A stretch of 25,492 bases of DNA. Origin: a virus. The position numbers were made by a program, and so were the translations under genes. Under the pieces are notes generated by a model, which saw only the letters and a list, made by a program, of their open reading frames with translations, did no database searches and was not told where the DNA came from. The DNA is taken from positions 17,471-42,962 of IMG/VR virus record IMGVR_UViG_3300030419_003063. One strand, written 5' to 3'. This document shows, piece by piece, positions 5,601 through 25,492 of the stretch. Numbering within the stretch: position 1 is the first letter of the stretch; each line of letters starts with the position of its first letter.

Positions 5601-6090
5601 TTGGTCTGCTGCTATAGTTGACCGCCCAAAGAACAAGAAGAAGTTTAGAGATAATATAGAACTTTATAAAGATGAAGGTGATTTTAGTGTCTCTGAAATA
5701 ATAAGCAACAAGACATCATTGACTGGGGTTTACCCATTTGAAATGATAATGACAGACGAATTGCGTCAACGATTGAATGACTTGAATGTTGTGCCAATCT
5801 CTGAATATGAAACTGCCCTGTCAATGGGCAGCGATTGGAATGTCGATGACGTTTTGTTAGTCTGGTTCGTGCCTCGCAGCCTCAAAAAGAAAAAGACTGC
5901 TAGAGGTGCGGAGTATTGGATACTAGAAGTCATTGATGAAAACAATATCATGACCAGAATTAAGTGCTGGGGTCCAAAAGAGAAAGATAAGATCGACCCA
6001 AATCAACCATATATGGCTAGGATCGACTACAGCGCACAGTGGGGCTTTAGCACTCGATCAGTTTATCACAACTTTAGGAAAATATCTTGA
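2638..6090 (+). CDS. dnaE: DNA polymerase III alpha subunit (DnaE-type) with intact PHP domain
   Basis: A C-family replicative polymerase of 1150 residues, about the size of bacterial DnaE. The N-terminal PHP domain keeps the expected metal ligands: H10/H12 (LHAHS), D44/H45 (LTDHG), E75 (GVEAYF), H130 (SRHMVLL), C181 (LSACLGG) and D255/H257 (TADSHY). A lysine- and glutamate-rich insert sits at about 92-128. The palm has GPGRGSAAGSLVAYVLG, then the catalytic pair D471/D473 in DYPDIDYDV and the third aspartate D636 in IKFDILGLSTL. Fingers motifs FQFTESGAQ, RPGPLSAG and SGYGFNKSHAVCY follow. A helix-hairpin-helix (IKGLGAAAMDQI) and a short OB-like region (YWILEVIDENNIMTRIKCWG) end the protein. 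It is alone between two GAATA...CGTC elements and has an AGGAG ribosome site. It is probably the phage replicase and may proofread through PHP. Confidence 0.96.
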   Translation: MEDIKFVNLHAHSGVGSPFDGFGYPQEHMDYAFQNGSKALALTDHGNMNGLAYQVLHAKKMEKEGKDFKPIYGVEAYFIPSVEEWRIKLEEHRADKKKAKEISNEKSGTNIEEEGASKSAGRSELNRSRHMVLLAMNQTGLQNIFKLVSLSHTKEYFYRKPRIDFKALEKHSEGVIALSACLGGIYAGCYWQNREQGSEAVLECMRDMTKKMTNIFGDRWYGEIQWNRVPEQHELNKYVIQMHKEFGIPLVSTADSHYPTPQAWKDRELYKRLGWLGRTKPEWLDMELPTEVQELECELYPKNGQQMWEAYNYYSEKCGVKYDDKLILDSIQETHRISFERIERYYPDDTIRLPDFVVPAGYTADDYLGRLATEGLFSMLKLNNNLSSKEEYKPRLDRELKVIADRGFSKYFLTMKAISDKASHMMLAGPGRGSAAGSLVAYVLGITQIDPIKHGLLFSRFLRSDAKDYPDIDYDVSDPMALKETLIKEWGSNTVVPISNWNTLQLRSLIKDISKFYGIPFKESNVVTNKMISEATPVAKKKHGIKAGVYVPTWEEVMEYSNSLQDFLKKYPIVEKHVKAMVGQYRSCSRHAGGVVVSENIDRYMPLIRSGDVMQTPWSEGQNVRQLEPMGFIKFDILGLSTLRMIESCIRRILIKEGKHNPSFQDIVKFYNEKLHPDVLDTDNQEVYENVFHQGKWAGIFQFTESGAQKFCQKVKPNSIVDISAVTSIFRPGPLSAGVDRDFMDARRNPDDIYYENKVVEDVTKETYGFLIFQEQIALLAHKLGKNLSLDEGNLLRKLLTKKGTDKAKLKHNIRIKFITGATEKGLTIEDAEDLWRRFEYFSGYGFNKSHAVCYSIVSYQCAWLMTYHEAEWLASYLDKETDKKKEKAIATAKSLGYKIYPVNINTSSRHWEVKSGALYSPLSSIKGLGAAAMDQIIKNRPFNTAEDFLFHPEVTYSKLNKKALDVLFRAGACQHLVDERFTGAKHFWSAAIVDRPKNKKKFRDNIELYKDEGDFSVSEIISNKTSLTGVYPFEMIMTDELRQRLNDLNVVPISEYETALSMGSDWNVDDVLLVWFVPRSLKKKKTARGAEYWILEVIDENNIMTRIKCWGPKEKDKIDPNQPYMARIDYSAQWGFSTRSVYHNFRKIS

Positions 6091-7894: not shown

Positions 7895-8242
7895 ATGTTA
7901 ACATTGTTAGTTGGGCTTATTGCCTGCTCAGAGAGCGAACCAGAACCTGTTCTTTTGACAAAAGAATTTTATGAATGGACATGTAATGACTATGAAAATC
8001 ACTCTGAAATTATAGTGAACACTAGTACATGTGAGGATTATGAGACAGGCTTATATTGGCTTATAGCAGAGTCACATTTGACATATGGAAGTGGGTTCAA
8101 AAGAAAATTAGACAAAACAGACAATTGGGATATTGATTGCTTATATCAAACTAAACTTCCACTTGTTGACGATTATTGTATTGAAGTAGAGGGAGTCACG
8201 CTCACTGCTTTTGTTGAGCCAGCCTCTTGGTTTGGAGATTAG
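7895..8242 (+). CDS. Small predicted lipoprotein, 115 aa
   Basis: The protein starts MLTLLVGLIAC; LIAC fits a lipobox with Cys10 as the lipidated residue, followed by SESEPEP. The mature part has four more cysteines, suggesting two disulfides and a periplasmic location. The chosen ATG at 7895 has AAGGAG at 7883-7888 with good spacing. An upstream in-frame TTG at 7880 would add KENK, giving the positive n-region the ATG form lacks, but it has no ribosome site. Phage lipoproteins often act in superinfection exclusion or lysis; which applies here cannot be told. Confidence 0.7.
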   Translation: MLTLLVGLIACSESEPEPVLLTKEFYEWTCNDYENHSEIIVNTSTCEDYETGLYWLIAESHLTYGSGFKRKLDKTDNWDIDCLYQTKLPLVDDYCIEVEGVTLTAFVEPASWFGD

Positions 8243-8243
8243 G

Positions 8244-9272
8244 ATGAAAGAAGGAATTACATTTAATGATGTATTGTTGCAGCCACAATATTCTGACATT
8301 AAAACTAGAAAAGCAATTGATATAGGTAACACATTGTCGGGTTCAACTGTACAATATTTTAAGCTCCCAATTATTTCTGCACCGATGGACACAGTGACAG
8401 AAACATCTATGGTGCAAGCTATAGATGAGTATGGGGGACTAGGTATCTTACATAGATACAACACTATAGAACAACAAGCTAACATGGTTAAGCAAGTAAA
8501 GCTTTTAAGTAAAAATCATAGGGTTGGTGCAGCTATTGGAATAACAGGTGATTTTCTAGAAAGAGCGATTGCTCTATATCATAATGGCGTTGATGTTCTG
8601 TGTCTAGACGTTGCTCACGGCCACCATATATCAACTAAAAACGCATTAGAGAAGCTTTGCAGTCTCTATAAAGGTCATGTACACATAATGGCTGGTAATG
8701 TGGCAACACTGGAGGGCTTTAACGATTTAGCAGACTGGGGAGCCGACTCTATTCGTGTTGGCATTGGTGGTGGCTCTATTTGTTCCACTAGAATTCAGAC
8801 TGGCCATGGCGTACCAACTCTTCAGTCGATTATGGATTGCTCAAGAACCGACAGAAACGCCATGCTAATTGCAGACGGTGGCCTTAAGACTTCTGGTGAT
8901 GTTGTAAAGGCACTCGCTGCTGGAGCAGATTTTGTTATGCTTGGATCAATGCTGGCTGGAACTACAGAATCCCCGGGAGAGTTTATAAGTCGAGGTGCAG
9001 GCAAACAAGGTATGAAAGTATACAGAGGGATGGCCTCTGAGGAAGCCCAGAAGGATTGGAGGGGTAAAGCCAACTCTTTAGAAGGAATTTCTACAACTAT
9101 TTTATACAAAGGAAAGGTTGGAAATGTACTTCAAAGACTAGATAAGGGTATAAGAAGTGGGTTTTCATACTCCGGAGCAAGAAATTTGAGAGAATTGCAA
9201 ACAAAAGCTAAATTTATAAGACAAACAAACTCTTCTATGGTAGAGAGCAGTACTCACATTCTGGTAAAATAA
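8244..9272 (+). CDS. IMP dehydrogenase / GMP reductase family enzyme lacking CBS domains
   Basis: A 342-residue TIM-barrel enzyme of guanine nucleotide metabolism. Visible: the N-terminal [14 protein letters not shown], the substrate block [12 protein letters not shown], the catalytic loop [18 protein letters not shown] with Cys180, [30 protein letters not shown], the flap start [13 protein letters not shown] and C-terminal [17 protein letters not shown]. Bacterial IMPDH is about 490 residues with two CBS domains inserted in the barrel; these are absent, giving the size of GMP reductase. YRGM and ESPGEF recall [15 protein letters not shown] recalls GMPR. The reaction direction is therefore unresolved. 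The ATG at 8244, with GGAG at 8234-8237, is preferred over an upstream in-frame start at 8211 that would overlap the lipoprotein gene. Confidence 0.9.
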
Positions 9273-10385: not shown

Positions 10386-10799
10386 ATGTTAGAAGTAATT
10401 TTAGTGTTGGTGCTGATGTTTGTATCTTTCTTTTTCGGAGCCTTTGTAACATTTCTTGGAAATACATCGATGTGTCGAAAGTACTCAAAGGAGATATGTG
10501 TTAAAATGTTACTAATACTCCACTCAATTAACGAAAATATGAAAAAAATCGATTCTGAAAAATATATTAAGATGAAGGAGTCCGGATTTTCCAATAATGC
10601 CATTAAAGGCCAAAGGAATATTGATTCCTACGATTTGCAAAAATGGAGAAACGACATTATAACTCAAATTATTACACGATACCCATTCCCACAAGATTTA
10701 AAATTCAGAGATTATGATGGGGCATTAGACTTTATGCATAATTATTATGCAGAGTTATCAAACATCCCCCCAAAAGAAAAACTTAATAAACAAATATAA
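10386..10799 (+). CDS. Small membrane-anchored protein of unknown function, 137 aa
   Basis: The N-terminus MLEVILVLVLMFVSFFFGAFVTFLG is a single strong transmembrane segment (about residues 2-25), followed by a mostly helical, charged cytoplasmic or periplasmic domain. The ATG at 10386 is preferred because an earlier in-frame TTG at 10359 lies within the terminator stem; its ribosome site is weak (GGTGAT). Near its middle is ESGFSNNAIKGQRNIDSYDLQKW. It is followed after nine bases by the ClpP-like gene. Function unknown. Confidence 0.75.
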   Translation: MLEVILVLVLMFVSFFFGAFVTFLGNTSMCRKYSKEICVKMLLILHSINENMKKIDSEKYIKMKESGFSNNAIKGQRNIDSYDLQKWRNDIITQIITRYPFPQDLKFRDYDGALDFMHNYYAELSNIPPKEKLNKQI

Positions 10800-10808
10800 G
10801 GAGATATT

Positions 10809-11471
10809 ATGAAGTTAACATGGAACAACGGTGAAAAAGAGAAAGTTGATAAAGATAATGAGGAAGAATCTATTGAAGAGGCTAAGTCTGCCCTATTGCA
10901 ACAACTAGAGAGTCCTATGGATAGCATGAGGTCTATGGCGTTGTATGGAGATATTCATGAAGAGAAAGCCTCTGAGATTGTTGGAGGTCTGTTAGCCTTG
11001 CAGCACATGGGTAAATCATGCGAAGAAGAGAGTGATCGGGCCATCGAGATGTTTATTTCAACTTACGGAGGCTGCGCTGATGACATGTTCTCAATTGTTG
11101 ATATTATGTCAGTAGTAAAACAAACTTGTACAATTAAGACAATTGGTATTGGTAAAGTTATGTCTGCTGGTGTACTGGTTCTCGCCTCTGGTACAAAGGG
11201 AGAGAGATATATTGGCAAAAACTGTCGGGTAATGCTTCACTCTGTTAGTGCAGGACATCATGGAACTTTACATAATTTAGAAAATGAGATAGAAGAAGTG
11301 AGAAAATTGCAAGATTTGTATATTGAAAACCTAATTACAAAGACAAACTTAACTAAAAAGCAAATTCGTGCCTTTTTGAGAAGAAAGTCTAATGTCTATC
11401 TTAGTGCAGAAGAAGCTATTAAGTACGGCATCGCAGATAAAATATACGGAGTAGAAGAGGATGGTGAGTGA
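10809..11471 (+). CDS. S14 / ClpP-like serine peptidase
   Basis: 220 residues. It has the ClpP core: FISTYGGCADDMFSIVD (oxyanion GG), the nucleophile Ser119 in GKVMSAGVLVLASG, His144 in VMLHSVSAG and the C-terminal LSAEEAIKYGIADKI. By alignment with E. coli ClpP (DRFLSAPEA), the catalytic Asp position is occupied by Asn195 (NVYLSAEEA); Listeria ClpP1 is known to carry such an Asn. The first 35 residues are charged and have no clear ClpP counterpart. The RBS is AAGGAG. No ClpX or ClpA is in the window. It could be a head-maturation protease of the S14 type or a protease acting on host proteins; the neighbours do not decide. Confidence 0.9.
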   Translation: MKLTWNNGEKEKVDKDNEEESIEEAKSALLQQLESPMDSMRSMALYGDIHEEKASEIVGGLLALQHMGKSCEEESDRAIEMFISTYGGCADDMFSIVDIMSVVKQTCTIKTIGIGKVMSAGVLVLASGTKGERYIGKNCRVMLHSVSAGHHGTLHNLENEIEEVRKLQDLYIENLITKTNLTKKQIRAFLRRKSNVYLSAEEAIKYGIADKIYGVEEDGE

Positions 11472-14273: not shown

Positions 14274-15845
14274 GTGAAAACATATTCTAATAACACATGC
14301 TTACATCAATCAATAGTGGAGGGAGTTAATAAGTTGGCAGACAATGTTGCAACAACATTAGGGCCAAAAGGGAGGAATGTAATTATTAAATATAAAAACA
14401 AGATCCCTTTTGTAACCAAAGATGGTGTTACAGTCGCTAAAGCTGTTACACTAAAAGATCCCTTTGAGAACGCTGCGGCAGAGATTATCAAACAAGCGAG
14501 CCTACAGACCAATTCAGAGGCTGGTGATGGCACAACAACTTCTACTGTTTTAGCCAGAGCAATTATAAATAAAGCTCAAGCTTATATTGCTGCTGGTGTT
14601 TCCCCGGTGGAACTCAAAAGGGGTATGGATAAGGCAGCAGTTCGTATAATGGAGCGATTAACTGAAAACGCAACCCCCATAAAGTCGGTTAAAGACATCA
14701 AACATGTTGCTACAATTTCGGCCAACAATGATTCGGTCATTGGTGACTTAGTATCAAAAGCTGTTGATTTGGCTGGAAAAGACGGTTCTGTGATTATCGA
14801 AGAGGGAAGGAGCAATCAAACCTCACTCGATGTTATAGAGGGCTTTAGGATCGATTCTGGCTATGCTGCTGGTGCTTTCGTGACAGATGAGCGTAGAGCT
14901 ACATGTTATTATGAAAAGCCATTGATTCTTGTGACAGAAGATAAATTAGAAACAGTCGAAGAGATGCTACCAGTACTTGAGCAAGTAGCCAGAGATGGTA
15001 GGCCATTGGTAATTGTCGCTGATGATATTGTTGAGCAAGCACTTGCTGCGCTTATAATGAACGCAGTACGGGGTACCATGAAAATTGTTGCAGTAAAGGC
15101 TCCGAAATATGGAGAAGAAAGAAAAAGCATATTAAAAGATTTGGCTATTTCAGTCGGCGCTACTTATATTAGTAGGGAGTCTGGTGTGCAACTTAATAAA
15201 GTTACATTAGAAGATTTAGGTTCTGCTAAATCTGTAGAAATAAATAAAAATGACTCTTGCTTTGTTGGAGGTAAAGGTGACTATGAAAAAATTGAAAGAA
15301 GGATTGAAGCGGCTAAAGAACAGCTTCGCAATACAGATTCTCCTTACGAAGGCGAAAGAATACAGGATAGAATTACTCGCCTTGCTTCTGGTGTTTCTGT
15401 TATACGAGTTGGTGGTTCTACAGTCGTTGAGATGACAGAAACAAAGCACAGAGTTGAGGATGCACTTGAAGCTGTCAAGGCAGCACAAAAAGAGGGAGTT
15501 GTTTCTGGCGGAGGTGTCGCCCTGTTGAACGCTGTAAAAAACTTAACTGTTGAAACTGAAAACCAAGATCAATCAAGGGGAGTTGACATTATTACCAGTG
15601 CCTGTCAAGAGCCAATCCGACAAATGGCTCGTAACTGTGGAAAATCAGAAGATATAATCATAGACATGTTGACTAACGAAGAGTCAGATGTTGTTGGTTA
15701 TGATTTTAGAAATAGCTCAATTGTTAATATGGTTGAAGCTGGCATCATAGATCCAGTTAAAGTGACTCGGTGCGCACTCAAAAACGCAGTCTCAGCAGCA
15801 GGGACATTGCTAACAACAAACTATGCTGTAATTGAAGTTGAATAA
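14274..15845 (+). CDS. groEL: GroEL-type chaperonin encoded by the phage
   Basis: 523 residues, near the 548 of E. coli GroEL. ATP-site motifs are present: TTLGPKGRNV (28-36), TKDGVTVAK with Asp50, and AGDGTTT with Asp85. The ATPase Asp396 lies in VEDALEAVKAA, followed by EGVVSGGGVAL. The apical part has the usual SGYAAGAFVTDE and KAPKYGEERKSILKDLA. It ends at AVIEVE without the flexible GGM repeat tail. Translation starts at GTG 14274 after GGAGGA; an ATG alternative is not in frame nearby. No GroES is recognisable in the window, so it may use host GroES, an unrelated co-chaperonin, or none. It probably folds phage virion proteins. Confidence 0.96.
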   Translation: MKTYSNNTCLHQSIVEGVNKLADNVATTLGPKGRNVIIKYKNKIPFVTKDGVTVAKAVTLKDPFENAAAEIIKQASLQTNSEAGDGTTTSTVLARAIINKAQAYIAAGVSPVELKRGMDKAAVRIMERLTENATPIKSVKDIKHVATISANNDSVIGDLVSKAVDLAGKDGSVIIEEGRSNQTSLDVIEGFRIDSGYAAGAFVTDERRATCYYEKPLILVTEDKLETVEEMLPVLEQVARDGRPLVIVADDIVEQALAALIMNAVRGTMKIVAVKAPKYGEERKSILKDLAISVGATYISRESGVQLNKVTLEDLGSAKSVEINKNDSCFVGGKGDYEKIERRIEAAKEQLRNTDSPYEGERIQDRITRLASGVSVIRVGGSTVVEMTETKHRVEDALEAVKAAQKEGVVSGGGVALLNAVKNLTVETENQDQSRGVDIITSACQEPIRQMARNCGKSEDIIIDMLTNEESDVVGYDFRNSSIVNMVEAGIIDPVKVTRCALKNAVSAAGTLLTTNYAVIEVE

Positions 15846-18697: not shown

Positions 18698-19146
18698 ACA
18701 ATAGAAAATGGAAGAATTATTTTTACAAACTTAACGAGACACAGGATGACAACTATGTTCAAAAATTATATAAATTGCCTGTTAGGTTTAAAGTGCAAAA
18801 GATGGTCGGCGGTAATAAATCTGAAACGGAAGATGACTTGCGGGCGTTAAATTATGTTACCTCCTTAAGTTTACCGAGAGATAGAAAGACAGATGCAGAA
18901 AATTGGTATTTCACTTTAGATATTAAATTTGAATATTATGATAAGGAGTTAAGTATTGATGAATTTATCAGGAACAAATTGTTGAGCAGTGTACGGAGTG
19001 TTCCGGGGGTTCAAATAATTTCTTATGGTGAGCCTGAGTTTGTCTATGATGCACAAAATCCAGATATTGGTAAAGAAAAACAAAGAAGTAGAGAATTTGG
19101 CGGAGATGAAAGGAAGATAAGTAAAAGAGATACTGAGGAGATTTAA
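18694..19146 (+). CDS. Unrecognised protein, 150 aa, ferredoxin-like fold possible
   Basis: Starts with ATGA overlap and TAAGGAG upstream. The middle has a strand-helix-strand pattern: WYFTLDIKFEYYD, IDEFIRNKLLSSVRSV, PGVQIISYGEP. This resembles a small alpha-beta domain seen in uncharacterised phage proteins. The N-terminus is basic, and the C-terminal 30 residues are charged (KEKQRSREFGGDERKISKRDTEE). No catalytic motif. Function unknown. Confidence 0.75.
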   Translation: MNNRKWKNYFYKLNETQDDNYVQKLYKLPVRFKVQKMVGGNKSETEDDLRALNYVTSLSLPRDRKTDAENWYFTLDIKFEYYDKELSIDEFIRNKLLSSVRSVPGVQIISYGEPEFVYDAQNPDIGKEKQRSREFGGDERKISKRDTEEI

Positions 19147-19148
19147 GT

Positions 19149-19370
19149 ATGAACAATAATGATAAACCAAAATACACAAAGGAACTTTTAGAAAAGAAAA
19201 CGAAAGAAGAGCTTATAGAATTAGTTCTTTTGCTTGAAGAAGAGAAGGGCTTGCTTAACTTTCTTATTGATGAATACGAGAATGCCCAAGAGTCTCTTGG
19301 AAAAGCAGTCGAATCCCAACTATCAGAATATTTAAGTAGCATGGTGACAAAAACTGTTGGAGAGGCATAA
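19149..19370 (+). CDS. Small coiled-coil protein, 73 aa
   Basis: Preceded by GAGGAG. Almost entirely helical with heptad-like leucines (TKEELIELVLLLEEEKGLLNFLIDEYENAQ), so probably a short coiled coil that multimerises or binds a partner. Its final base is shared with the next ATG. Function unknown. Confidence 0.7.
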   Translation: MNNNDKPKYTKELLEKKTKEELIELVLLLEEEKGLLNFLIDEYENAQESLGKAVESQLSEYLSSMVTKTVGEA

Positions 19371-19720
19371 TGAGTACCACAACGGAGCCAACAGAACAGG
19401 AAAGTATAGATAGTTTAAAACCAAAACCTCCTCCAAAGTTGGCCCCCAGAGGTATTAGTACATTTACGGTTTGTAGAAATTATGATGAAACTGGCGTTTC
19501 TGGGGATGGTGTGGTGATCGAAGGAGTCATAATGGCAACCGGACATTGCATAATACACTGGCTTTATCCACCACCGAGAGGCGGCATCGCAATTTTTGAT
19601 TCTCTTGATGATTTTTTAAAAGTACATGTGCTGCCGCATCCAAAGAATAAGACCGTTATTACATTTGATGATGGTGAGCAAAGAAAGTTTGGCGATGGAT
19701 GGGAAAATGATCAAGATTAA
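19370..19720 (+). CDS. Unrecognised protein, 116 aa
   Basis: A Thr/Pro-rich disordered N-terminus (about 1-27) precedes a beta-rich domain: STFTVCRNYDETGVSGDGVVIEGVIM, ATGHCIIHWLYPPPRGGIAIF, then DSLDDFLKVHVLPHPKN. This resembles uncharacterised phage proteins in which a 'VCRDxDxTGVSGTGxVxEG' strand pair is followed by 'xHWxxPPRG'; I know no function. GGAGAG precedes the ATG. The HAD gene starts 14 bases before its stop. Confidence 0.75.
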   Translation: MSTTTEPTEQESIDSLKPKPPPKLAPRGISTFTVCRNYDETGVSGDGVVIEGVIMATGHCIIHWLYPPPRGGIAIFDSLDDFLKVHVLPHPKNKTVITFDDGEQRKFGDGWENDQD

Positions 19721-20465
19721 TGTTGGGCAACGTAGAATATTATATGTATTTGACTTTGATGACACAATAGCAGAGACAGAAGAGGCAGTCCTTGTTAAGG
19801 ATAAAAAGACCAATAAGATTGTAGATCACATTCATTCACAACAAGAGGCAGACAACTATATTTTAAAACCCAATTTATACTATGACTTTTCAGAATTTGT
19901 AAATGTTGAGGGTGCAAAGGAAATAGAATTGGTTACAACTTATCTTAGAAAATTGGCTTTAGAAGGTCACAAGATTATTGTTTTGTCTGCCAGACAACCA
20001 CAAGCCAGATTTGCCTTAAAAAATTACCTAAGAAGCATTAATATTGTTACCGAACCTATCACATTTGGCTGTGTCGATGGGTCTAAGAATAAATACGCAT
20101 ATTTAAAAAGAATGATTAAAAAATTTAATCCTAAAGAAAGGGTTGTGGTGTTTGAGGATACATTAAAAAATATACAAATGATGTTACCCTTAGAAGAAGA
20201 CTATCCAGATTTAGTATTTGATTTTGTTCATGTGCATACGCCCGAAACAGACGAAGAGTTAGAAGAGGCCAACAGGAATCAATATCATCGTAAAAACACT
20301 GTTGCTCAGTACGGCACAGAAAAATACCAAAGAACACTGAAGAGGGTTCACCCGAAAATGAAGAGAAGATTGATTGGCTTGGGTGATAACAAACACAGTG
20401 AAAAAAGAGTAAAGAAAGTCAAAGATTTTAAGAGGGCAAAATCCGCACCACCGGGAGGCGCATGA
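19707..20465 (+). CDS. HAD-superfamily phosphatase-like protein with basic tail
   Basis: 252 residues from ATG 19707; in-frame ATGs at 19695 and 19626 lie deeper in the previous gene. HAD motif I is FDFDDTIAE with Asp16 and Asp18; motif II is in IIVLSARQP; motif IV is VVVFEDTLKNI. The 3' phosphatase half of phage polynucleotide kinases has this layout, but no kinase domain is attached. Residues from about 180 are strongly basic (KRVHPKMKRRL, KRVKKVKDFKRAK), suggesting nucleic-acid binding. Substrate unknown. It overlaps the previous gene by 14 bases. It ends in PPGGA, whose codons supply a GGGAGG ribosome site for the next gene. Confidence 0.85.
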   Translation: MIKINVGQRRILYVFDFDDTIAETEEAVLVKDKKTNKIVDHIHSQQEADNYILKPNLYYDFSEFVNVEGAKEIELVTTYLRKLALEGHKIIVLSARQPQARFALKNYLRSINIVTEPITFGCVDGSKNKYAYLKRMIKKFNPKERVVVFEDTLKNIQMMLPLEEDYPDLVFDFVHVHTPETDEELEEANRNQYHRKNTVAQYGTEKYQRTLKRVHPKMKRRLIGLGDNKHSEKRVKKVKDFKRAKSAPPGGA

Positions 20466-21257
20466 ATGGGTAACTATAAAAAAACGGTTAAATGCAGTTG
20501 GTGCCACACTCATGGTCATAATAAGGTTACATGCCCAAAATTGAAAGAATATGTTGAATCTTGTAGGCAACTTTACGGTAATGATCACAAGGTTGTACAA
20601 GAATATGACAGAGTTAAAAAGAGATATAGCAAAAAATCATCCAATAATGCAAGAAAGAAAAGGCTTTGTTCATACTGCTTTGAGCCTCATCACAACAGGA
20701 GAACATGCACTCATCTTGAAGCTCACAAGAAAGCTCTAATTGAGAAAAATGTTGTCTGGAGACAAGCTGTACTTGATATTTTAAAAGATAGCGATGTAAG
20801 TGTGGGTTCGCTTATAATGCATGATACTGAAAAATATTGCGTTACGGATATTTTGCCCCACATACAATCATCCAATAAAGATTTGTGGATGATTATAAAA
20901 ATTAATTGGCAAGATGTCGTGTTCTTTGAGCCTTGCGATGAAATTTTTACTATTTCTCTCATGAAAAGGCCGTCCACAAAAAGAAATATAAATTTGGAAA
21001 GCCTACTTTTTCACAATTCTAAAACTTATCATAGCTCTGATTGTATTTGGAGAGTAGTTTCAAAAGGCGGCTCTCTAAATGTACCCAAAGATTGGCTATC
21101 TAAAGATAAGAACATAATTAATAAAGTAGATATATTCTTCAATGACCTAACCAAGGAAGCCTATGAAGACGTATTTTCGGCAAAAAATTCTGATAGGGAC
21201 AACAACTTACTTACTTCCATATTAAAAGAGAAACAAGATGACGAAAAAGAAAGATAA
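20466..21257 (+). CDS. Double CCHC zinc-knuckle protein, probable RNA or ssDNA binder
   Basis: 263 residues. Two perfect CX2CX4HX4C knuckles of the retroviral Gag type: C10-C13-H18-C23 (CSWCHTHGHNKVTC) and C68-C71-H76-C81 (CSYCFEPHHNRRTC). They are joined by a basic linker with KKRYSKKSSNNARKKR. Residues from about 105 form a separate domain with DVSVGSLIMHDTEKYCVTDI and KDLWMIIKINWQDVVFFEPCDE, which may be a small SH3-like barrel. Knuckles of this class bind single-stranded nucleic acid. GGGAGG lies before the ATG. Role unknown; regulation of phage RNA is one possibility. Confidence 0.88.
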   Translation: MGNYKKTVKCSWCHTHGHNKVTCPKLKEYVESCRQLYGNDHKVVQEYDRVKKRYSKKSSNNARKKRLCSYCFEPHHNRRTCTHLEAHKKALIEKNVVWRQAVLDILKDSDVSVGSLIMHDTEKYCVTDILPHIQSSNKDLWMIIKINWQDVVFFEPCDEIFTISLMKRPSTKRNINLESLLFHNSKTYHSSDCIWRVVSKGGSLNVPKDWLSKDKNIINKVDIFFNDLTKEAYEDVFSAKNSDRDNNLLTSILKEKQDDEKER

Positions 21258-21516
21258 AATTACACTAACACCCTTTGAGGTCGCATCAGAGAACAGTCAA
21301 CAGTTCGCAATAAATATGTATACATTCTACCTATTTCAGAAATCATGCAATGAGTTATTGTTGGCCGATAAAGTTATAAAAAGAGCTTTGGCTGTTACTG
21401 AGGACGAGGTAGAAATGGAAAGATTACTGAAGGAGTTCGACAAAAATACTTTGGCATGGGATATGATTATGAAACTTGATGCTTTGTCTGGAAGCTCTTG
21501 TTATGCGGAGGCTTAA
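21238..21516 (+). CDS. Small helical protein, 92 aa
   Basis: The ATG lies inside the 3' end of the zinc-knuckle gene (20-base overlap). The product is helical with a charged C-terminal part (TEDEVEMERLLKEFDKN) and no recognisable motif. The last codons GCGGAGGCT supply the ribosome site for the next gene. Function unknown. Confidence 0.7.
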   Translation: MTKKKDKITLTPFEVASENSQQFAINMYTFYLFQKSCNELLLADKVIKRALAVTEDEVEMERLLKEFDKNTLAWDMIMKLDALSGSSCYAEA

Positions 21517-21758
21517 TGCTGTATGAAGTTGGTGATTTGCTAAAATTTAAAGACAAATGGTGGTCAGTCTATGAAATGGAAGACGTATGGGAATATGGTA
21601 TCCTGATTGATAAGTCATTTATATTTGATAAAACTAATTGCCCCGATTGGGGTGATGGCATTAGAGTGGATGAGTTTACGGTATATAATTTTTCCACAGG
21701 TGCGAAGTATTTGATTGATACTTCTAAATATGATATAGAGATAGTTGTCAAAAAATGA
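21516..21758 (+). CDS. GDL-type small SH3/KOW-like protein, divergent first member, 80 aa
   Basis: The ATG at 21516 overlaps the previous TAA by one base and follows GGAGG; an in-frame start at 21498 is less likely. The N-terminus MLYEVGDLLKFKDKWWSVYEM resembles the MKVGDLVK start of the array proteins downstream. It ends DIEIVVKK, where array members inside an operon would have EVISESR; it is the last gene before the element at 21757. Confidence 0.75.
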   Translation: MLYEVGDLLKFKDKWWSVYEMEDVWEYGILIDKSFIFDKTNCPDWGDGIRVDEFTVYNFSTGAKYLIDTSKYDIEIVVKK

Positions 21759-21781
21759 ATAAATGTTGATCTTGAATCGTC
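21757..21781 (+). promoter_or_regulatory. Repeated GAATA-N16-CGTC element, start of the GDLV array
   Basis: GAATA at 21757 and CGTC at 21778-21781, with ATCTTGAAT before it. GAGGTG at 21790 is the ribosome site for 21801, 8 bases after CGTC, as in the copies at 6089 and 15840. Spacing is one base longer than in those copies. Confidence 0.55.
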
Positions 21782-21800
21782 TGAGTATTGAGGTGTGACA

Positions 21801-22004
21801 ATGAAAAGACTTTGGCCAAAACAGGGCGACATTGTAAAAATAACCGCAGAGCATCATTATAAACTTGGTGCCATTGGCGTTGTTGTGGGTGACTATGCAA
21901 AATCTAAACATAACGCTGGCAAGGCTTATCATATAAGGTTTTTCGATGGCACTAAGCGCACCTGTTTTAAAAAGAATTTTGAGGTGATCAGTGAAAATAG
22001 GTGA
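21801..22004 (+). CDS. GDLV-family small protein 1, 67 aa
   Basis: The ATG at 21801 follows GAGGTG with a 5-base gap, the same geometry as the internal junctions; an in-frame GTG lies at 21795. The protein starts MKRLWPKQGDIVKIT, has GAIGVVVGDY and IRFFDGTKRTCF, and ends FEVISENR. The strand pattern fits a small SH3/KOW-like barrel. Its last 14 bases are also the first 14 of the next gene. Confidence 0.8.
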   Translation: MKRLWPKQGDIVKITAEHHYKLGAIGVVVGDYAKSKHNAGKAYHIRFFDGTKRTCFKKNFEVISENR

Positions 22005-22167
22005 TTTAGTTAAAGTAAAGGATGTGTTGCCCTTGAAACACCTTGTCGGTCACGTTGGTGTCATTACCAAAGAAAGGTATAATAAGCATTGGGTGAAAGT
22101 CCATATCTCAGGAGAGACAAAAGGTATTAGAGTAGGTGACTTGGAGGTGATCAATGAAAGTAGGTGA
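21991..22167 (+). CDS. GDLV-family small protein 2, 58 aa
   Basis: GTG start at 21991, 14-base overlap with the previous gene; GAGGTG at 21981-21986 is the ribosome site and also codes Glu-Val of the upstream protein. The product starts (M)KIGDLVKVKDVLPLKHL, has GHVGVITKERYN and WVKVHISGE, and ends LEVINESR. The Asn codon AAT creates an ATG start for the next gene instead of GTG. Confidence 0.82.
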   Translation: MKIGDLVKVKDVLPLKHLVGHVGVITKERYNKHWVKVHISGETKGIRVGDLEVINESR

Positions 22168-22369
22168 TTTAGTGAGATACAAATGGCAAAAGATGTGGAA
22201 TAAATACTCTTCTGCTCTTGGCAAACAAGAGTGGCATGAGAGGTTTGACAATTATTATGGAGTCATATATAAGATAGATTCAGTCATGTCTACAGTTTGG
22301 ATTAAATTCAGCGATAAAACTACATCACTCAAAGCCAGTGAAATCGAGGTTGTGTCTGAGTGTCAGTAG
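22154..22369 (+). CDS. GDLV-family small protein 3, 71 aa
   Basis: ATG start at 22154, 14-base overlap. Starts MKVGDLVRYKWQKMWNKY, then YYGVIYKIDS, TVWIKFSDKTTSLKA, and ends IEVVSECQ, a drifted version of the usual tail. The barrel-like pattern GVI...VWI.F.D is clear. Confidence 0.85.
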   Translation: MKVGDLVRYKWQKMWNKYSSALGKQEWHERFDNYYGVIYKIDSVMSTVWIKFSDKTTSLKASEIEVVSECQ

Positions 22370-22569
22370 AATTGGTCAAAGTAGGGGATCTTGTGCAGCT
22401 TAACCAAGACTGCACCAATATTCTTGGTTTGTGCGTAGGTATATCAAAGAGCAAAAAGCGTTGGACAAGGCGGGCAAAGATACTCTGGATAGGGAGCAGC
22501 AGAGTCTCTTCTATATTAATTATGCGTTTAAAGACAGCACATCGAGGTTATAATACAATAGAAGTATAG
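22360..22569 (+). CDS. GDLV-family small protein 4, diverged, 69 aa
   Basis: GTG start at 22360, 10-base overlap instead of 14; an in-frame TTG at 22372 would give VKVGDLVQ directly. The protein has VELVKVGDLVQLNQDCTN, GLCVGISKSKKRW and AKILWIGSS. It stops right after NTIEV, lacking ISESR, and the next gene begins 7 bases later. This is the one internal junction that has decayed. Confidence 0.7.
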   Translation: MSVELVKVGDLVQLNQDCTNILGLCVGISKSKKRWTRRAKILWIGSSRVSSILIMRLKTAHRGYNTIEV

Positions 22570-22576
22570 TTATTAT

Positions 22577-22819
22577 GTGTGTGATGAACTTGAAATAGGT
22601 GACTTAGTGCTTTGGCATAACTCAAAAGAATTTATGGGAATTGTAGTAGATTTAAACTCAGGCTCTTATGTCGATAGAGCTTTTATCTATTGGTTTACAG
22701 CAAGCACCGAAGCACACAAAATACTTGGTGGCGGCCTTCCATTGGTCGGTGCTGGCTGGGAGCCTGTAACATTTTTAAAAGTTTTTAAAAAAGGAAATTT
22801 GAATAAAAACAAATCTTAA
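22577..22819 (+). CDS. GDLV-family small protein 5, operon-terminal, 80 aa
   Basis: GTG start at 22577; nearby ATGs are out of frame. Starts (M)CDELEIGDLVLWHNSKEF, then GIVVDLNSGS and RAFIYWFTAS. It ends in LKVFKKGNLNKNKS without the SESR tail; the 3' end runs into the GAATA...CGTC element at 22801. The ribosome site is weak, so reinitiation after the gene at 22360 is likely. Confidence 0.7.
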   Translation: MCDELEIGDLVLWHNSKEFMGIVVDLNSGSYVDRAFIYWFTASTEAHKILGGGLPLVGAGWEPVTFLKVFKKGNLNKNKS

Positions 22820-22825
22820 TCCGTC
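22801..22825 (+). promoter_or_regulatory. Repeated GAATA-N16-CGTC element
   Basis: GAATA at 22801, CGTC at 22822-22825 preceded by ATCTTAATC. The leader after it contains TGAACCTAAGCAACTGGAG, a near copy of the TGAACCCAAGAAAGAGG leaders at the next three elements. CGTC to ribosome site is about 21 bases. Confidence 0.6.
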
Positions 22826-22856
22826 TGATATATGAACCTAAGCAACTGGAGAAAAA

Positions 22857-23243
22857 ATGGCTTATTTGAAGAAAGATGATATTGTATTGTTTAAAGGTGC
22901 TGGTACTATACAGTCAATCGTTACCGATGTGCGATTCCGCAGATACAGAGGAAAATATACAGATAAGAAAACAGGCGAAAAGAAGAAGAAATGGAAATCA
23001 ATGCCTTATGCTATCTGTAAAGTATTCTCTACTAACGATAATAGTGTTAAAGTATCGCAAGAATTCTTGATTCCGGGCTATAAACTTAGAAATACCTTTA
23101 AGGAAGGCAAGAAAGTTTTGGTTTTACACGACAAATATGTAGCAGAATTCCAAGGCCAATATGGTGCGGAGTGGGCTTCTAAGATCATTGAAGAGAGCCA
23201 GAAATTTAGGAGCAAAGGAGGTGACAATGAGGAAGAGGAATAA
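22857..23243 (+). CDS. Larger GDLV-related protein, 128 aa
   Basis: Preceded by CTGGAG. Starts MAYLKKDDIVLFKGAGTIQ, close in style to the GDLV family but with KDDIV. It continues IVTDVRFRRYRG, a basic stretch TDKKTGEKKKKWKS, YAICKVFSTN, and a C-terminal extension KKVLVLHDKYVAEF...EESQKFRSKGGDNEEEE. Basic and acidic ends suggest nucleic-acid contact or disorder. It overlaps the next gene by 17 bases; its last codons (AGGAGGTGA) are that gene's ribosome site. Confidence 0.8.
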   Translation: MAYLKKDDIVLFKGAGTIQSIVTDVRFRRYRGKYTDKKTGEKKKKWKSMPYAICKVFSTNDNSVKVSQEFLIPGYKLRNTFKEGKKVLVLHDKYVAEFQGQYGAEWASKIIEESQKFRSKGGDNEEEE

Positions 23244-23538
23244 ACATATAGTTTGCGCTGATGGCTTTAAAATGTCAGTCCAAGCTCATGAAGGAGCATA
23301 TTGTACCCCAAGGATAAGTGATGCTGATTATTATTCTCATGTAGAGATAGGTTATCCAAGTCATGTTGAGCCTTTAATCCTCTCTTATGCTGAACAAAAA
23401 GATCGGCCAATGGATACTGTTTATGGATATGTGCCAAGGGAAAGGGTAATGCTGGTGGTCTTAAAGCATGGTGGCCAGATTTCTGGTCAAATGCCCAATG
23501 GAATACCAATTTTGCCTCCGCCGAAAAAAAATGAATAA
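23227..23538 (+). CDS. Uncharacterised conserved-type phage protein, 103 aa
   Basis: The ATG at 23227 has a perfect AAAGGAGGTGA (23214-23224); a longer in-frame reading from 23161 is rejected. The product (HIVCADGFKMSVQAHEGAYC, ISDADYYSHVEIGYPS, TVYGYVPRERV, HGGQISGQMPNG) resembles a family of phage hypothetical proteins with DGF.MSVQA, VE.GYPS and TVYG.VP blocks; no function is known to me. It is the last gene before the next element. Confidence 0.8.
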   Translation: MRKRNKHIVCADGFKMSVQAHEGAYCTPRISDADYYSHVEIGYPSHVEPLILSYAEQKDRPMDTVYGYVPRERVMLVVLKHGGQISGQMPNGIPILPPPKKNE

Positions 23539-23557
23539 ATATAAATCCTAATCCGTC
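23533..23557 (+). promoter_or_regulatory. Repeated GAATA-N16-CGTC element with conserved leader
   Basis: GAATA at 23533 and CGTC at 23554-23557, followed by TGAACCCAAGCAAGAGGTGC and the ATG at 23587. The leader is nearly identical to those at 24522 and 25086, so element, leader, ribosome site and KVGD coding start repeat as one block. Confidence 0.62.
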
Positions 23558-23586
23558 AAAGTAATGAACCCAAGCAAGAGGTGCTT

Positions 23587-23769
23587 ATGAAAGTAGGTGA
23601 TTTGGTTAAATATTGTGGATTACTAAAAGGCGAAGAAGAATTGCCTACTGATACTGGGATTATCCTCTCTATTAATGAAGATGGGTACTATAAAGTCCTA
23701 TGGTCTGATGGTAACTATGATGAAGATTTGATCTACTCAGAATTAGAGGTGATCAGTGAAAGTAGGTGA
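23587..23769 (+). CDS. GDLV-family small protein 6, 60 aa
   Basis: ATG after GAGGTGCTT. Starts MKVGDLVKYCGLLKGEEE, then TGIILSINEDGYYKVLWSDG, and ends LEVISESR. This is a textbook member: MKVGDLV, GIIL, V.W.DG, EVISESR. The 14-base 3' overlap with the next gene is exact. Confidence 0.88.
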   Translation: MKVGDLVKYCGLLKGEEELPTDTGIILSINEDGYYKVLWSDGNYDEDLIYSELEVISESR

Positions 23770-23926
23770 TTTGGTTATGCACGAAATGTGGGGGCTTGCC
23801 ATAGTATTCAAGAAGGTCAGTCCACACGTTAATAGGTGGTGGATTAGAGTTTTAGATAAACAATGTTATAAGCAAGATTATACTTGCTGGGCGGCAGAAT
23901 GTGAGGTGCTAAGTGAAAGCAGGTGA
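23756..23926 (+). CDS. GDLV-family small protein 7, 56 aa
   Basis: GTG start at 23756 with GAGGTG at 23746. Product (M)KVGDLVMHEMWGLAIVFKK, then WWIRVLDKQCYKQ, and end CEVLSESR. The serine codon AGT again provides the GTG of the next gene. Fourteen-base overlaps on both sides. Confidence 0.85.
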   Translation: MKVGDLVMHEMWGLAIVFKKVSPHVNRWWIRVLDKQCYKQDYTCWAAECEVLSESR

Positions 23927-24137
23927 TTTATTAAGAAATGTGGCAACTGGTGAGTTAGCGATAATACTATCAACTTTTACTAAGTTTTTTCAAGACCCAG
24001 ATGCTTATGGTTGTGATTATGACTGTGGTGTAGCAGATACAGCAATTCGCATCAAATGGATAGAAAACGGTCACGAAAGAACCATTAGAAGAAATAGATT
24101 AAAATACAATTGGGAGGTGATTAGTGAAAGTAATTGA
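23913..24137 (+). CDS. GDLV-family small protein 8, 74 aa
   Basis: GTG start at 23913 with GAGGTG upstream. Starts (M)KAGDLLRNVATGELAIILS, has a longer loop DPDAYGCDYDCGVAD with two cysteines, then AIRIKWIENGHERTIRRN, and ends WEVISESN. Coupled by the 14-base overlap to an unrelated Smr-like gene. Confidence 0.87.
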   Translation: MKAGDLLRNVATGELAIILSTFTKFFQDPDAYGCDYDCGVADTAIRIKWIENGHERTIRRNRLKYNWEVISESN

Positions 24138-24336
24138 TTTGCATGGAGTTAGACATAAGGATGTATATGGATTATTAGAAAAGCCTTGCATAAACGATGA
24201 TATACCATTTGCGGTTATCACAGGAAAGTCTGATACAATGAAAAAGATTGTAACACAAATTGTTGCAACCTTTGGGCTACATACCAAAGAGAAGCTGGGT
24301 AATAGCGGGAGGCTAATAATCTGTGAAAGTAGGTGA
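24124..24336 (+). CDS. Smr-like domain protein inserted in the array, 70 aa
   Basis: Not a GDLV barrel: the sequence is (M)KVIDLHGVRHKDVYG, then PFAVITGKSDTMKKIVTQIV. DLHG (5-8) followed by a strand and the loop ITGKSDTM (32-39) is the layout of the Smr (small MutS-related) domain, which binds or cuts nucleic acid; the usual HGxG is changed to TGKS. It uses the same GTG junction with 14-base overlap at both ends, and ends LIICESR, so it carries the last part of the array tail despite its different fold. Confidence 0.78.
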   Translation: MKVIDLHGVRHKDVYGLLEKPCINDDIPFAVITGKSDTMKKIVTQIVATFGLHTKEKLGNSGRLIICESR

Positions 24337-24523
24337 CCTAATAAAGATATATCCGAAAGATGGAGCGGTTTCTTGTGTCGTTGGTATATATCTTGGTGAC
24401 GAGAGAGAACCATACCAGACGGACACCAAATTTTGGATTAAAAGTCCTGTTTTTTTAGTGAACGGTCAGCGAAAAACATATAATAAGCTTGACTACAGAT
24501 TTGAAATTATAAAAAAAGATTGA
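24323..24523 (+). CDS. GDLV-family small protein 9, operon-terminal, 66 aa
   Basis: GTG at 24323, 14-base overlap with the Smr-like gene; GGGAGG at 24307-24312 is the probable ribosome site. Starts (M)KVGDLIKIYPKDGAVSCVV, then GIYLGDEREP and FWIKSPVFLVNGQRKTY. It ends FEIIKKD, without SESR, immediately before the element at 24522. Confidence 0.85.
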   Translation: MKVGDLIKIYPKDGAVSCVVGIYLGDEREPYQTDTKFWIKSPVFLVNGQRKTYNKLDYRFEIIKKD

Positions 24524-24545
24524 ATATATAAATTTTTCACACGTC
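24522..24545 (+). promoter_or_regulatory. Repeated GAATA-N15-CGTC element with conserved leader
   Basis: GAATA at 24522, CGTC at 24542-24545. From GAATA through the following ATG this block is almost identical to the one at 25086 (TATAAATTTTTCA, then CGTCAAAATAGTGAACCCAA). TATAAAT recalls the T4-type late promoter box, but other copies lack it. Confidence 0.62.
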
Positions 24546-24574
24546 AAAATAGTGAACCCAAGAAAGAGGTGCTT

Positions 24575-24730
24575 ATGAAAGTAGGTGACTTAGTAAAAAC
24601 ACATAGAGGTAATCTTGCCTTTATTACAGAAGTTGGTCGTGATTGGTGCAATATATTATTTATCACTTCCGGTAACCATAGGACAGGCTTTCCCATAGAG
24701 TGGATCAGGGTGCTAAGTGAAAGTCGGTGA
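24575..24730 (+). CDS. GDLV-family small protein 10, 51 aa
   Basis: The shortest member: MKVGDLVKTHRGNLAFITEV, then WCNILFITSGNHR, ending IRVLSESR. ATG after GAGGTGCTT in the conserved leader. The stop overlaps the next GTG start by 14 bases. Family membership at both ends supports it despite its size. Confidence 0.83.
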   Translation: MKVGDLVKTHRGNLAFITEVGRDWCNILFITSGNHRTGFPIEWIRVLSESR

Positions 24731-24911
24731 TTTAGTTAAATGGATTGATTATAAAGCAGACATTCCGGTTGAGCATATAGGGATTGTTCTAAAATTTTAC
24801 AAAAGCACTATGAGAGACTATGTTGATTGGTCTGATATGGTTGTATTGTCTGGAGGCAGACAACAAACATGGACTTCTTGGCAATGCGAGGTGATACATG
24901 AAAGTAGGTGA
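24717..24911 (+). CDS. GDLV-family small protein 11, 64 aa
   Basis: GTG start at 24717; ribosome site AGGGTG. Product (M)KVGDLVKWIDYKADIPVEH, then IGIVLKFYKST, VVLSGGRQQTW, and end CEVIHESR. The histidine codon CAT creates the ATG of the next gene. Confidence 0.86.
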   Translation: MKVGDLVKWIDYKADIPVEHIGIVLKFYKSTMRDYVDWSDMVVLSGGRQQTWTSWQCEVIHESR

Positions 24912-25095
24912 TTTAGTGGGTATTGGCTGGAGCGGAATAAAAAAACAACCATTCCCAGCAATAATTACAAAGGTACACAAAAAGTTTAGCTATCAACAAT
25001 CCAAGTCTTATACTGTTTATATATTTAGTAATTGCAAGAAGGCATTTGCTACAGAGAGAGATTTGAAAAAAATTGAAGATTATTTGAATATATAA
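24898..25095 (+). CDS. GDLV-family small protein 12, operon-terminal, 65 aa
   Basis: ATG at 24898 with GAGGTG upstream and 14-base overlap. Starts MKVGDLVGIGWSGIKKQPFP, then AIITKVHKKF and YTVYIFSNCKKA, ending KKIEDYLNI. The SESR tail is missing; the element at 25086 overlaps its 3' end. Confidence 0.86.
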   Translation: MKVGDLVGIGWSGIKKQPFPAIITKVHKKFSYQQSKSYTVYIFSNCKKAFATERDLKKIEDYLNI

Positions 25096-25109
25096 ATTTT
25101 TCATGCGTC
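25086..25109 (+). promoter_or_regulatory. Repeated GAATA-N15-CGTC element with conserved leader
   Basis: GAATA at 25086 and CGTC at 25106-25109; differs from the block at 24522 by only about two bases through to the ATG at 25139, indicating recent duplication. Here GAATA is read in a different coding frame (Leu-Asn-Ile-stop) than in other copies. Confidence 0.62.
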
Positions 25110-25138
25110 AAAATAGTGAACCCAAGAAAGAGGTGCTT

Positions 25139-25306
25139 ATGAAAGTAGGAGATTTGGTCAGACACAAACCATCAAAGACTTTAGGTTTGATTACTTATGT
25201 TTTCTTTTCTAAGAATTTGAAAGGCTTAGTGGAAGTCCGGTGGCTCGATGGCCTTGCCGGTGACATTGAATGTAGGCACATTGAGGTGGTCAGTGAAAGT
25301 AGGTGA
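25139..25306 (+). CDS. GDLV-family small protein 13, 55 aa
   Basis: ATG at 25139 after GAGGTGCTT; an upstream in-frame ATG at 25103 would read through the leader and is rejected. Product MKVGDLVRHKPSKTLGLITY, then LVEVRWLDGLAGD, ending IEVVSESR. Confidence 0.87.
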   Translation: MKVGDLVRHKPSKTLGLITYVFFSKNLKGLVEVRWLDGLAGDIECRHIEVVSESR

Positions 25307-25481
25307 TTTAGTAAAAGATAAAGAATACGATGACGCTGCTTCGTATGGTGTGATTATCCGCATTGGAGATTTGAGAACGAAAAATCCTTACCACATTTTA
25401 TGTTTTCGAGGTGGTGTTCTATCTAAATTTCCAAAGGATTATGTGCAGAACCACTGTGAGGTTATCAATGAAAGTAGGTGA
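25293..25481 (+). CDS. GDLV-family small protein 14, 62 aa
   Basis: GTG at 25293 with GAGGTG upstream; a longer in-frame reading from 25248 is not needed. Product (M)KVGDLVKDKEYDDAASYG, then VIIRIGDLR and YHILCFRGGVL, ending CEVINESR. The Asn codon supplies the next ATG. Confidence 0.86.
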   Translation: MKVGDLVKDKEYDDAASYGVIIRIGDLRTKNPYHILCFRGGVLSKFPKDYVQNHCEVINESR

Positions 25482-25492
25482 TTTAGTAAAAG
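25468..25492 (+). CDS. GDLV-family small protein 15, cut by window end
   Basis: ATG at 25468 with the exact 14-base overlap; the visible part encodes MKVGDLVK. The array therefore continues beyond the window. Confidence 0.8.

Follow-up and report, generated by a model that had tools for sequence, protein, structure and literature searches.

Homologous recombination at short boundary sequences between phage modules was proposed to drive mosaicism, but most mosaic boundaries have no such sequence that can be recognized (PMC3029335). Other short repeated elements lie at or near gene ends: PeSL elements of T4-type phages are mobile regulatory cassettes made of a promoter and a stem-loop (as cited in PMC4503421), the SAS element of cluster K mycobacteriophages is a 13-bp GGGATAGGAGCCC tied to gene starts (PMC3203893), and integron cassettes use a 59-base element (PMC1382264). 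Here, we describe the joint, a 14-nt overlap of coding sequences (consensus, GAGGTNATNARTGAAAGTMGGTGA) that links small genes into an array in a viral contig and in its relatives. The stretch analyzed (the window) is 25,492 nt long and comprises bases 17471 to 42962 of the 42,962-nt IMG/VR record IMGVR_UViG_3300030419_003063. We consider it probable that the array strings exchangeable mini-gene cassettes into a chain by means of a reusable start module.

The literature searched contains no account of this joint. It acts like a boundary sequence or like PeSL-type modular shuffling and resembles SAS, but lacks the defining features of PeSL and SAS that were compared. As far as PeSL elements are characterized in that citation, they too are short repeats with expression signals that provide homology for gene shuffling in the accessory regions of large myoviruses. 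Gene shuffling is likewise associated with the joint, which nonetheless lies inside a coding overlap, carries a ribosome site, a start codon, and a stop codon, and has neither a terminator nor the promoter-terminator stem-loop that defines PeSL. The joint is also a short shared junction sequence that coincides with breaks in homology, as boundary sequences do, but it recurs at hundreds of junctions, is dual coding, and links genes with no relation to one another into long arrays. SAS likewise recurs as a short sequence where small genes begin, many of them and from different families, and probably acts in translation initiation (PMC3203893); however, PMC3203893 reports neither that it is a coding overlap nor that partners change at it, and the joint consensus is not an GGGATAGGAGCCC-like element. 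The array further resembles integrons, in which promoterless, exchangeable single-gene cassettes carry the same short element at both ends (PMC1382264), but its genes overlap directly, with no room for a separate site, and the repeated element consists of the gene ends themselves. Rfam gave no match in window positions 19000 to 25492 (attC included; an integrase gene was not searched for).

Anatomy of the joint

Ten 14-nt overlaps are present in the window, with downstream genes starting at 21991, 22154, 23756, 23913, 24124, 24323, 24717, 24898, 25293, and 25468, in agreement with the count and coordinates of the original prediction, which had been made from the sequence alone. Their 14-mers have a mean pairwise identity of 0.90, and the interiors of the array genes resemble one another no more than shuffled sequences do (identity in aligned columns, 0.63 versus 0.61). 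A degenerate 24-base search pattern (GAGGTNNTNARTGAAAGTAGGTGA; control, the same letters reversed) matched 68 stretches in IMG/VR, against 0 for the control, and joints were found in 16 of 16 large virus records searched, in a single orientation per record, again with no control match. Chance is thus excluded as the source of this recurrence. In 65 loci, the joint links about 570 small genes of one SH3-like family.

Over 349 distinct joints, conservation forms an island that spans roughly positions −12 to +19 relative to the start codon, composed in order of a GAGG ribosome site, ATG or GTG, AAA, GTA or GTC, GGT, GAY, and Leu-Val codons. The start module within it (ATG/GTG-AAA-GTN-GGT-GAY) stops the +1 frame at xTGA (overlap of 4 nt) and the +2 frame at GGTGA (overlap of 14 nt), in each case with TGA. 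Both other frames are stopped within 14 nt at 446 of 569 family starts, compared with 58 of 399 starts of other genes. The overlap measures exactly 14 nt because the Gly-Asp codons of the downstream start module carry the TGA; no spacing is measured out separately. A 4-nt joining mode (ATGA) exists within the same gene family (92 starts, versus 365 joined by 14 nt), and among all overlaps of neighboring genes (simple gene caller, nonredundant loci) 14 nt is the commonest length (332 of 1,615), with 237 of 4 nt.

An ESR-like tail is carried by 266 of 308 family genes in which another gene starts 14 nt before their end, versus 7 of 261 without such a neighbor, and in the predicted structure of one cassette the final strand reaches to residue 57, leaving the ESR residues (58 to 60) outside. 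This tail is a by-product of the next gene's start module. ESR as a functional tail was also considered and was dropped, as terminal genes are without it. In 236 of 243 joints, the Glu of the LEV motif upstream of the start is encoded by GAG, against 258 of 647 interior Glu codons (40%; p 5e-64), a bias that indicates selection for the ribosome site, and the spacing from GAGG to the start codon is tight at joints. GTG starts are frequent there (189 of 365 joined genes versus 27 of 204 unjoined) since the start codon doubles as part of the Ser or Asn codon of the tail.

The view of the joint as a dual-coding tail, start codon, and ribosome site is thereby upheld, whereas the built-in tail and the exact 14 nt of the original prediction are better described as consequences of the start module, beside which the 4-nt mode exists. 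The sequences it quoted hold with exceptions. SESR is the commonest tail in the window (4 of 10 in the strict form), the others being SENR, NESR (twice), SESN, CESR, and HESR; GAGGTG stands upstream of 7 of 10 starts, with AGGGTG at 24717, GAGGTT at 25468, and only a more distant GGGAGG at 24323; and the protein started at 24124 opens with KVIDLHG in place of (M)KVGD. The comparison of junctions with interiors that it proposed gave differences at 10.6% of sites in the 14-nt overlap versus 31.5% in the interiors of orthologous cassettes, and array content varies among relatives; a fixed gene order with junctions as divergent as the interiors was not found. The interiors have a ratio of nonsynonymous to synonymous polymorphism (pN/pS) of 0.33 over 121 ortholog pairs, which shows that selection acts on the proteins of the small genes. 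Together with the codon bias, this ratio suggests that the internal genes are translated, and translation across the joint may be coupled.

Exchange and capture of cassettes

Breaks in homology between related loci (numbered here with L or G) fall at joints: 68 of 71 ends of homology blocks lie within 30 nt of a joint (random expectation, 49%) and 65 of 71 within 20 nt (random expectation, 37%). Single cassettes are inserted or deleted from joint to joint, three times between L014 and L046 and once between L060 and L067, and joint-associated cassette insertions or deletions also distinguish L008 from L013 and L007 from L057. The cassette-free allele in the L014/L046 and L060/L067 comparisons has a hybrid joint that matches the carrier's left joint in its left part and the carrier's right joint in its right part, the changeover falling inside the shared core; three of these four events show the pattern most clearly. 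One cassette is replaced by another between L015 and L063, which are otherwise 98 to 99% identical, and the left end of the swap is clean.

Cassettes are also reordered and change partners. Two homologous cassettes stand in opposite order in L074 and L075, the SFKPKSFG cassette is preceded by different partners across L074 to L078, and one cassette is joined to seven different upstream partners. Across clusters of cassettes, the downstream joined partner was the same in 33 of 174 comparisons and the upstream partner in 33 of 196.

Genes unrelated to the SH3-like family have been captured between joints. A GIY-YIG nuclease (L052, 388 to 648; E value, 1.5e-16) and a SWIM zinc finger (L028, 2434 to 2745; score at the profile cutoff) both have joint ends, and the KLVRDGIPEII gene of L027 (3745 to 4050) may be MazG-like, an assignment that profiles do not confirm. 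In L048, a joint-to-joint unit (10635 to 10778, oriented) contains a tRNA-Ala (oriented, 10668 to 10743; 1737 to 1812 on the original − strand), and its open frame still starts with VKVGDM and ends with LEVISESR. In a separate, off-joint case, the 99.9% identical contigs L025 (about 2163 to 2377) and L039 (about 2967) are distinguished by a segment of 215 bp with a tiny open reading frame and a tRNA-Thr.

The window has a heterologous cassette of its own at 24124 to 24336. Its structure model (beta-alpha-beta-alpha-beta-beta; predicted local distance difference test [pLDDT] score, 87) has Smr domains as best PDB matches (E values, 0.035 to 0.064), and VIDLHG, containing the DLHG motif, is present in the sequence; no significant Pfam or NCBIfam match was obtained. 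An Smr-like fold is therefore predicted. Related genes occur as array cassettes in L022/G007 (89% identical), in L027, and in G008 (48%, with a 4-nt join on one side), and outside the array, alone and lacking the tail, in G009, G006, and G004. These occurrences are most simply explained if the gene was captured into the array, the presumed direction of transfer. The stand-alone Smr-like gene of L085 and L087 adjoins a gene that by eye resembles an SbcD/gp46-47-type nuclease.

Adjacent joined genes have a mean identity of 22%, and only 7 of 3,415 within-locus pairs exceed 50% (in L081, L027, L008, and L025), with local duplication seen in L081 and L027. Since recent local duplication is rare, import of diverged cassettes is the main route by which arrays grow. 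The original prediction, that the phage expands, shuffles, and deletes cassettes at these joints, agrees with the cassettes added, lost, and reordered in relatives and with the unrelated genes that carry joint ends; as an interpretation, it is partly supported overall.

Mechanism and competing explanations

The mechanism that we propose begins with the start module, which encodes the opening strand (MKVGDLV) of an SH3-like barrel together with a stop in both other frames, so that a gene placed ahead of it in either out-of-frame register terminates within it, after 4 or 14 nt. When the overlap is 14 nt, this gene acquires a (S/N)ESR tail that it does not otherwise need, and Glu-Val codons of the same gene supply the ribosome site of the next. 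Start module, tail, and ribosome site together give about 32 nt of near-identical DNA at every junction. Exchange at this stretch, between genomes and within arrays, could insert, delete, swap, or reorder whole genes, each of which would keep its ends, stop, ribosome site, and start. We favor crossing-over within the joint (roughly 30 nt) by a RecA/UvsX-type recombinase of these viruses; a RecA-family recombinase is encoded in 16 of 16 records, and RecT, as an annealing recombinase, in 0 of 16. A further proposal is put forward tentatively: the joint would be a cassette platform of a wholly new category, free of integrase, in which a coding adapter that ends both foreign frames and starts translation anew evolved and was retained because with it phages can draw single genes, tRNAs and unrelated enzymes among them, from a common pool by short-homology recombination.

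The main rival is illegitimate, sequence-independent exchange followed by selection for intact genes, with the joint as a passive scar, which is how phage mosaicism has classically been explained (PMC3029335). Because each joint is also a gene boundary, selection for intact genes would place breakpoints there as well. Further points weigh against a cassette chain: whole-gene insertions and deletions, including some gains of cassettes, also use small-gene boundaries without a joint; the right end of the L015/L063 swap is irregular; neighbor turnover is high throughout the loci, where core genes and other small genes also often switch neighbors; and nearly all of the data are metagenomic contigs. 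Other counts speak against illegitimate exchange. When anchor genes were less than 80% identical, the neighbor was kept at 6 of 214 joints, compared with 34 of 197 other same-family boundaries and 92 of 509 boundaries of larger genes, in comparisons that are not independent of each other; without identity classes, joints were not separable from other boundaries, the separation appearing below 80%. The other genome has an exact 14-nt joint at the same place in 34 of 52 partner changes, and the cassette-free alleles have hybrid joints that switch inside the shared core. We judge the illegitimate model unlikely, if the most serious of the alternatives.

Tandem duplication of an ancestral self-overlapping gene, with diverged interiors and with joints held alike by dual coding, would require no exchange, and the single SH3-like fold of most members and the few within-locus pairs above 50% identity are in its favor. 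Neighbors as dissimilar as those described above speak against it, however, as do orthologous cassettes in different orders with different partners, and GIY-YIG, SWIM, Smr-like, and tRNA inserts cannot come from an SH3 ancestor. The heterologous cassettes and permuted order largely refute this origin, which we regard as improbable. There is equally little to recommend a device for translation only, in which the joint is conserved as an efficient overlapping start and shuffling is incidental: it would explain the strong GAG bias and the tight GAGG spacing, but it accounts neither for exact joints kept through a change of partner nor for the tRNA cassette. Such a role is compatible with the chain of exchangeable cassettes and does not exclude it.

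The window array and its viruses

All array features of the window lie on the + strand. The first joined gene (21801 to 22004; tail, SENR) runs through joint 1 (GTGAAAATAGGTGA; 21991 to 22004) into an SH3-like cassette beginning KIGDLV (21991 to 22167; tail, NESR), and joint 2 (22154 to 22167) leads to a terminal SH3-like cassette (22154 to 22369; end, SECQ) followed by a 10-nt overlap. Unjoined genes within the span, starting at 22360, 22577, 22857, and 23227, have other arrangements. New strings open behind a repeated leader at 23587, 24575, and 25139. The string at 23587 begins with the modeled SH3-like cassette (23587 to 23769; pLDDT, 87) and continues through joint 3 (23756 to 23769), an SH3-like cassette with the tail LSESR (23756 to 23926), joint 4 (23913 to 23926), another with the tail ISESN (23913 to 24137), and joint 5 (24124 to 24137; variant, GTGAAAGTAATTGA) into the Smr-like cassette (24124 to 24336; KVIDLHG...ICESR), after which joint 6 (24323 to 24336), with its ribosome site displaced to the GGGAGG farther upstream, opens a terminal SH3-like cassette without the ESR tail (24323 to 24523). 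The next string consists of SH3-like cassettes at 24575 to 24730, 24717 to 24911 (tail, HESR), and 24898 to 25095 (terminal), linked by joints 7 (24717 to 24730) and 8 (24898 to 24911). In the last, SH3-like cassettes at 25139 to 25306 and 25293 to 25481 (tail, NESR) are linked by joint 9 (25293 to 25306), and joint 10 (25468 to 25481) opens a gene cut by the end of the contig, which the array reaches.

The leader (GAATA..TATAAAT..CGTCAAARTARTGAACCCAAG) occurs in five copies, at 21757, 22801, 23533, 24522, and 25086, and nowhere else in the 43-kb contig; the copy at 23533 to 23586 (+ strand) reads GAATAAATATAAAT..CGTCAAAGTAATGAACCCAAGCAAGAGGTGCTT. It carries a TATAAAT-like stretch and TGAACCCAAG, and its 3′ end, GAGGTGCTTATG, is a joint variant. 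The TATAAAT-like stretch suggests a phage promoter. Between 21400 and 25492, matches resembling sigma-70 promoters were not in excess over shuffled sequence, and no terminator-like hairpins were found. The unjoined gene HIVCADGFKMSVQAHEGAYC (23227 to 23538) is present in ten IMG/VR loci, in 7 of 10 with family genes nearby, and could possibly serve as an anchor for locating arrays.

The SH3-like family was modeled as a five-stranded small barrel (AlphaFold2; pLDDT, 87), for which Foldseek gave a probability of about 1.0 to SH3, KOW, Tudor, and PWWP domains with weak E values (best, 0.01). No Pfam family was common to more than 2 of 102 members, no PHROGs family occurred in more than 3 members, and NCBIfam returned nothing informative for the SH3-like proteins. 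Structure-level relatives among viral proteins include several A0A516M* entries of about 50 to 66 amino acids. With low confidence, we propose that the proteins may be diversifying accessory binders with fast turnover, used in host takeover or counter-defense.

The host viruses of the array are a little-known group of large viruses. Grouping by DnaE-like polymerase and GroEL places the window virus with IMG/VR records of about 185 to 203 kb, to which its polymerase is 61 to 72% identical and its GroEL 57 to 66%. Among the named phages of INPHARED, tblastn gave no match to any window cassette at E values up to 1, and short DNA matches to the joint were at chance level only. In 84,980 bacterial and archaeal genomes, one joint match was found, on a 25-kb contig (L073, perhaps a misbinned virus) of a Methanocellales metagenome-assembled genome. 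The GroEL-like gene of the window (14274 to 15845) is less than 60% identical to that of any phage record compared and is kept in 9 of 9 large array-bearing records tested. By eye, the open reading frames at 134 to 865, 2638 to 6090, 8211 to 9272, and 10809 to 11471 resemble ThyX, DNA polymerase III alpha, IMP dehydrogenase, and ClpP, a cell-like gene set for a phage.

It has long been asked how phages can trade genes with clean breaks at gene boundaries, and the usual answer is random exchange combined with selection. In these viruses, block ends, hybrid joints, and permuted orders are measurable, so homologous and illegitimate models can be weighed against each other. Gene chains can be made extensible in a simple way, by a start module with stops in both other frames, and the joint is a sequence tag for retrieving accessory phage genes from metagenomes.

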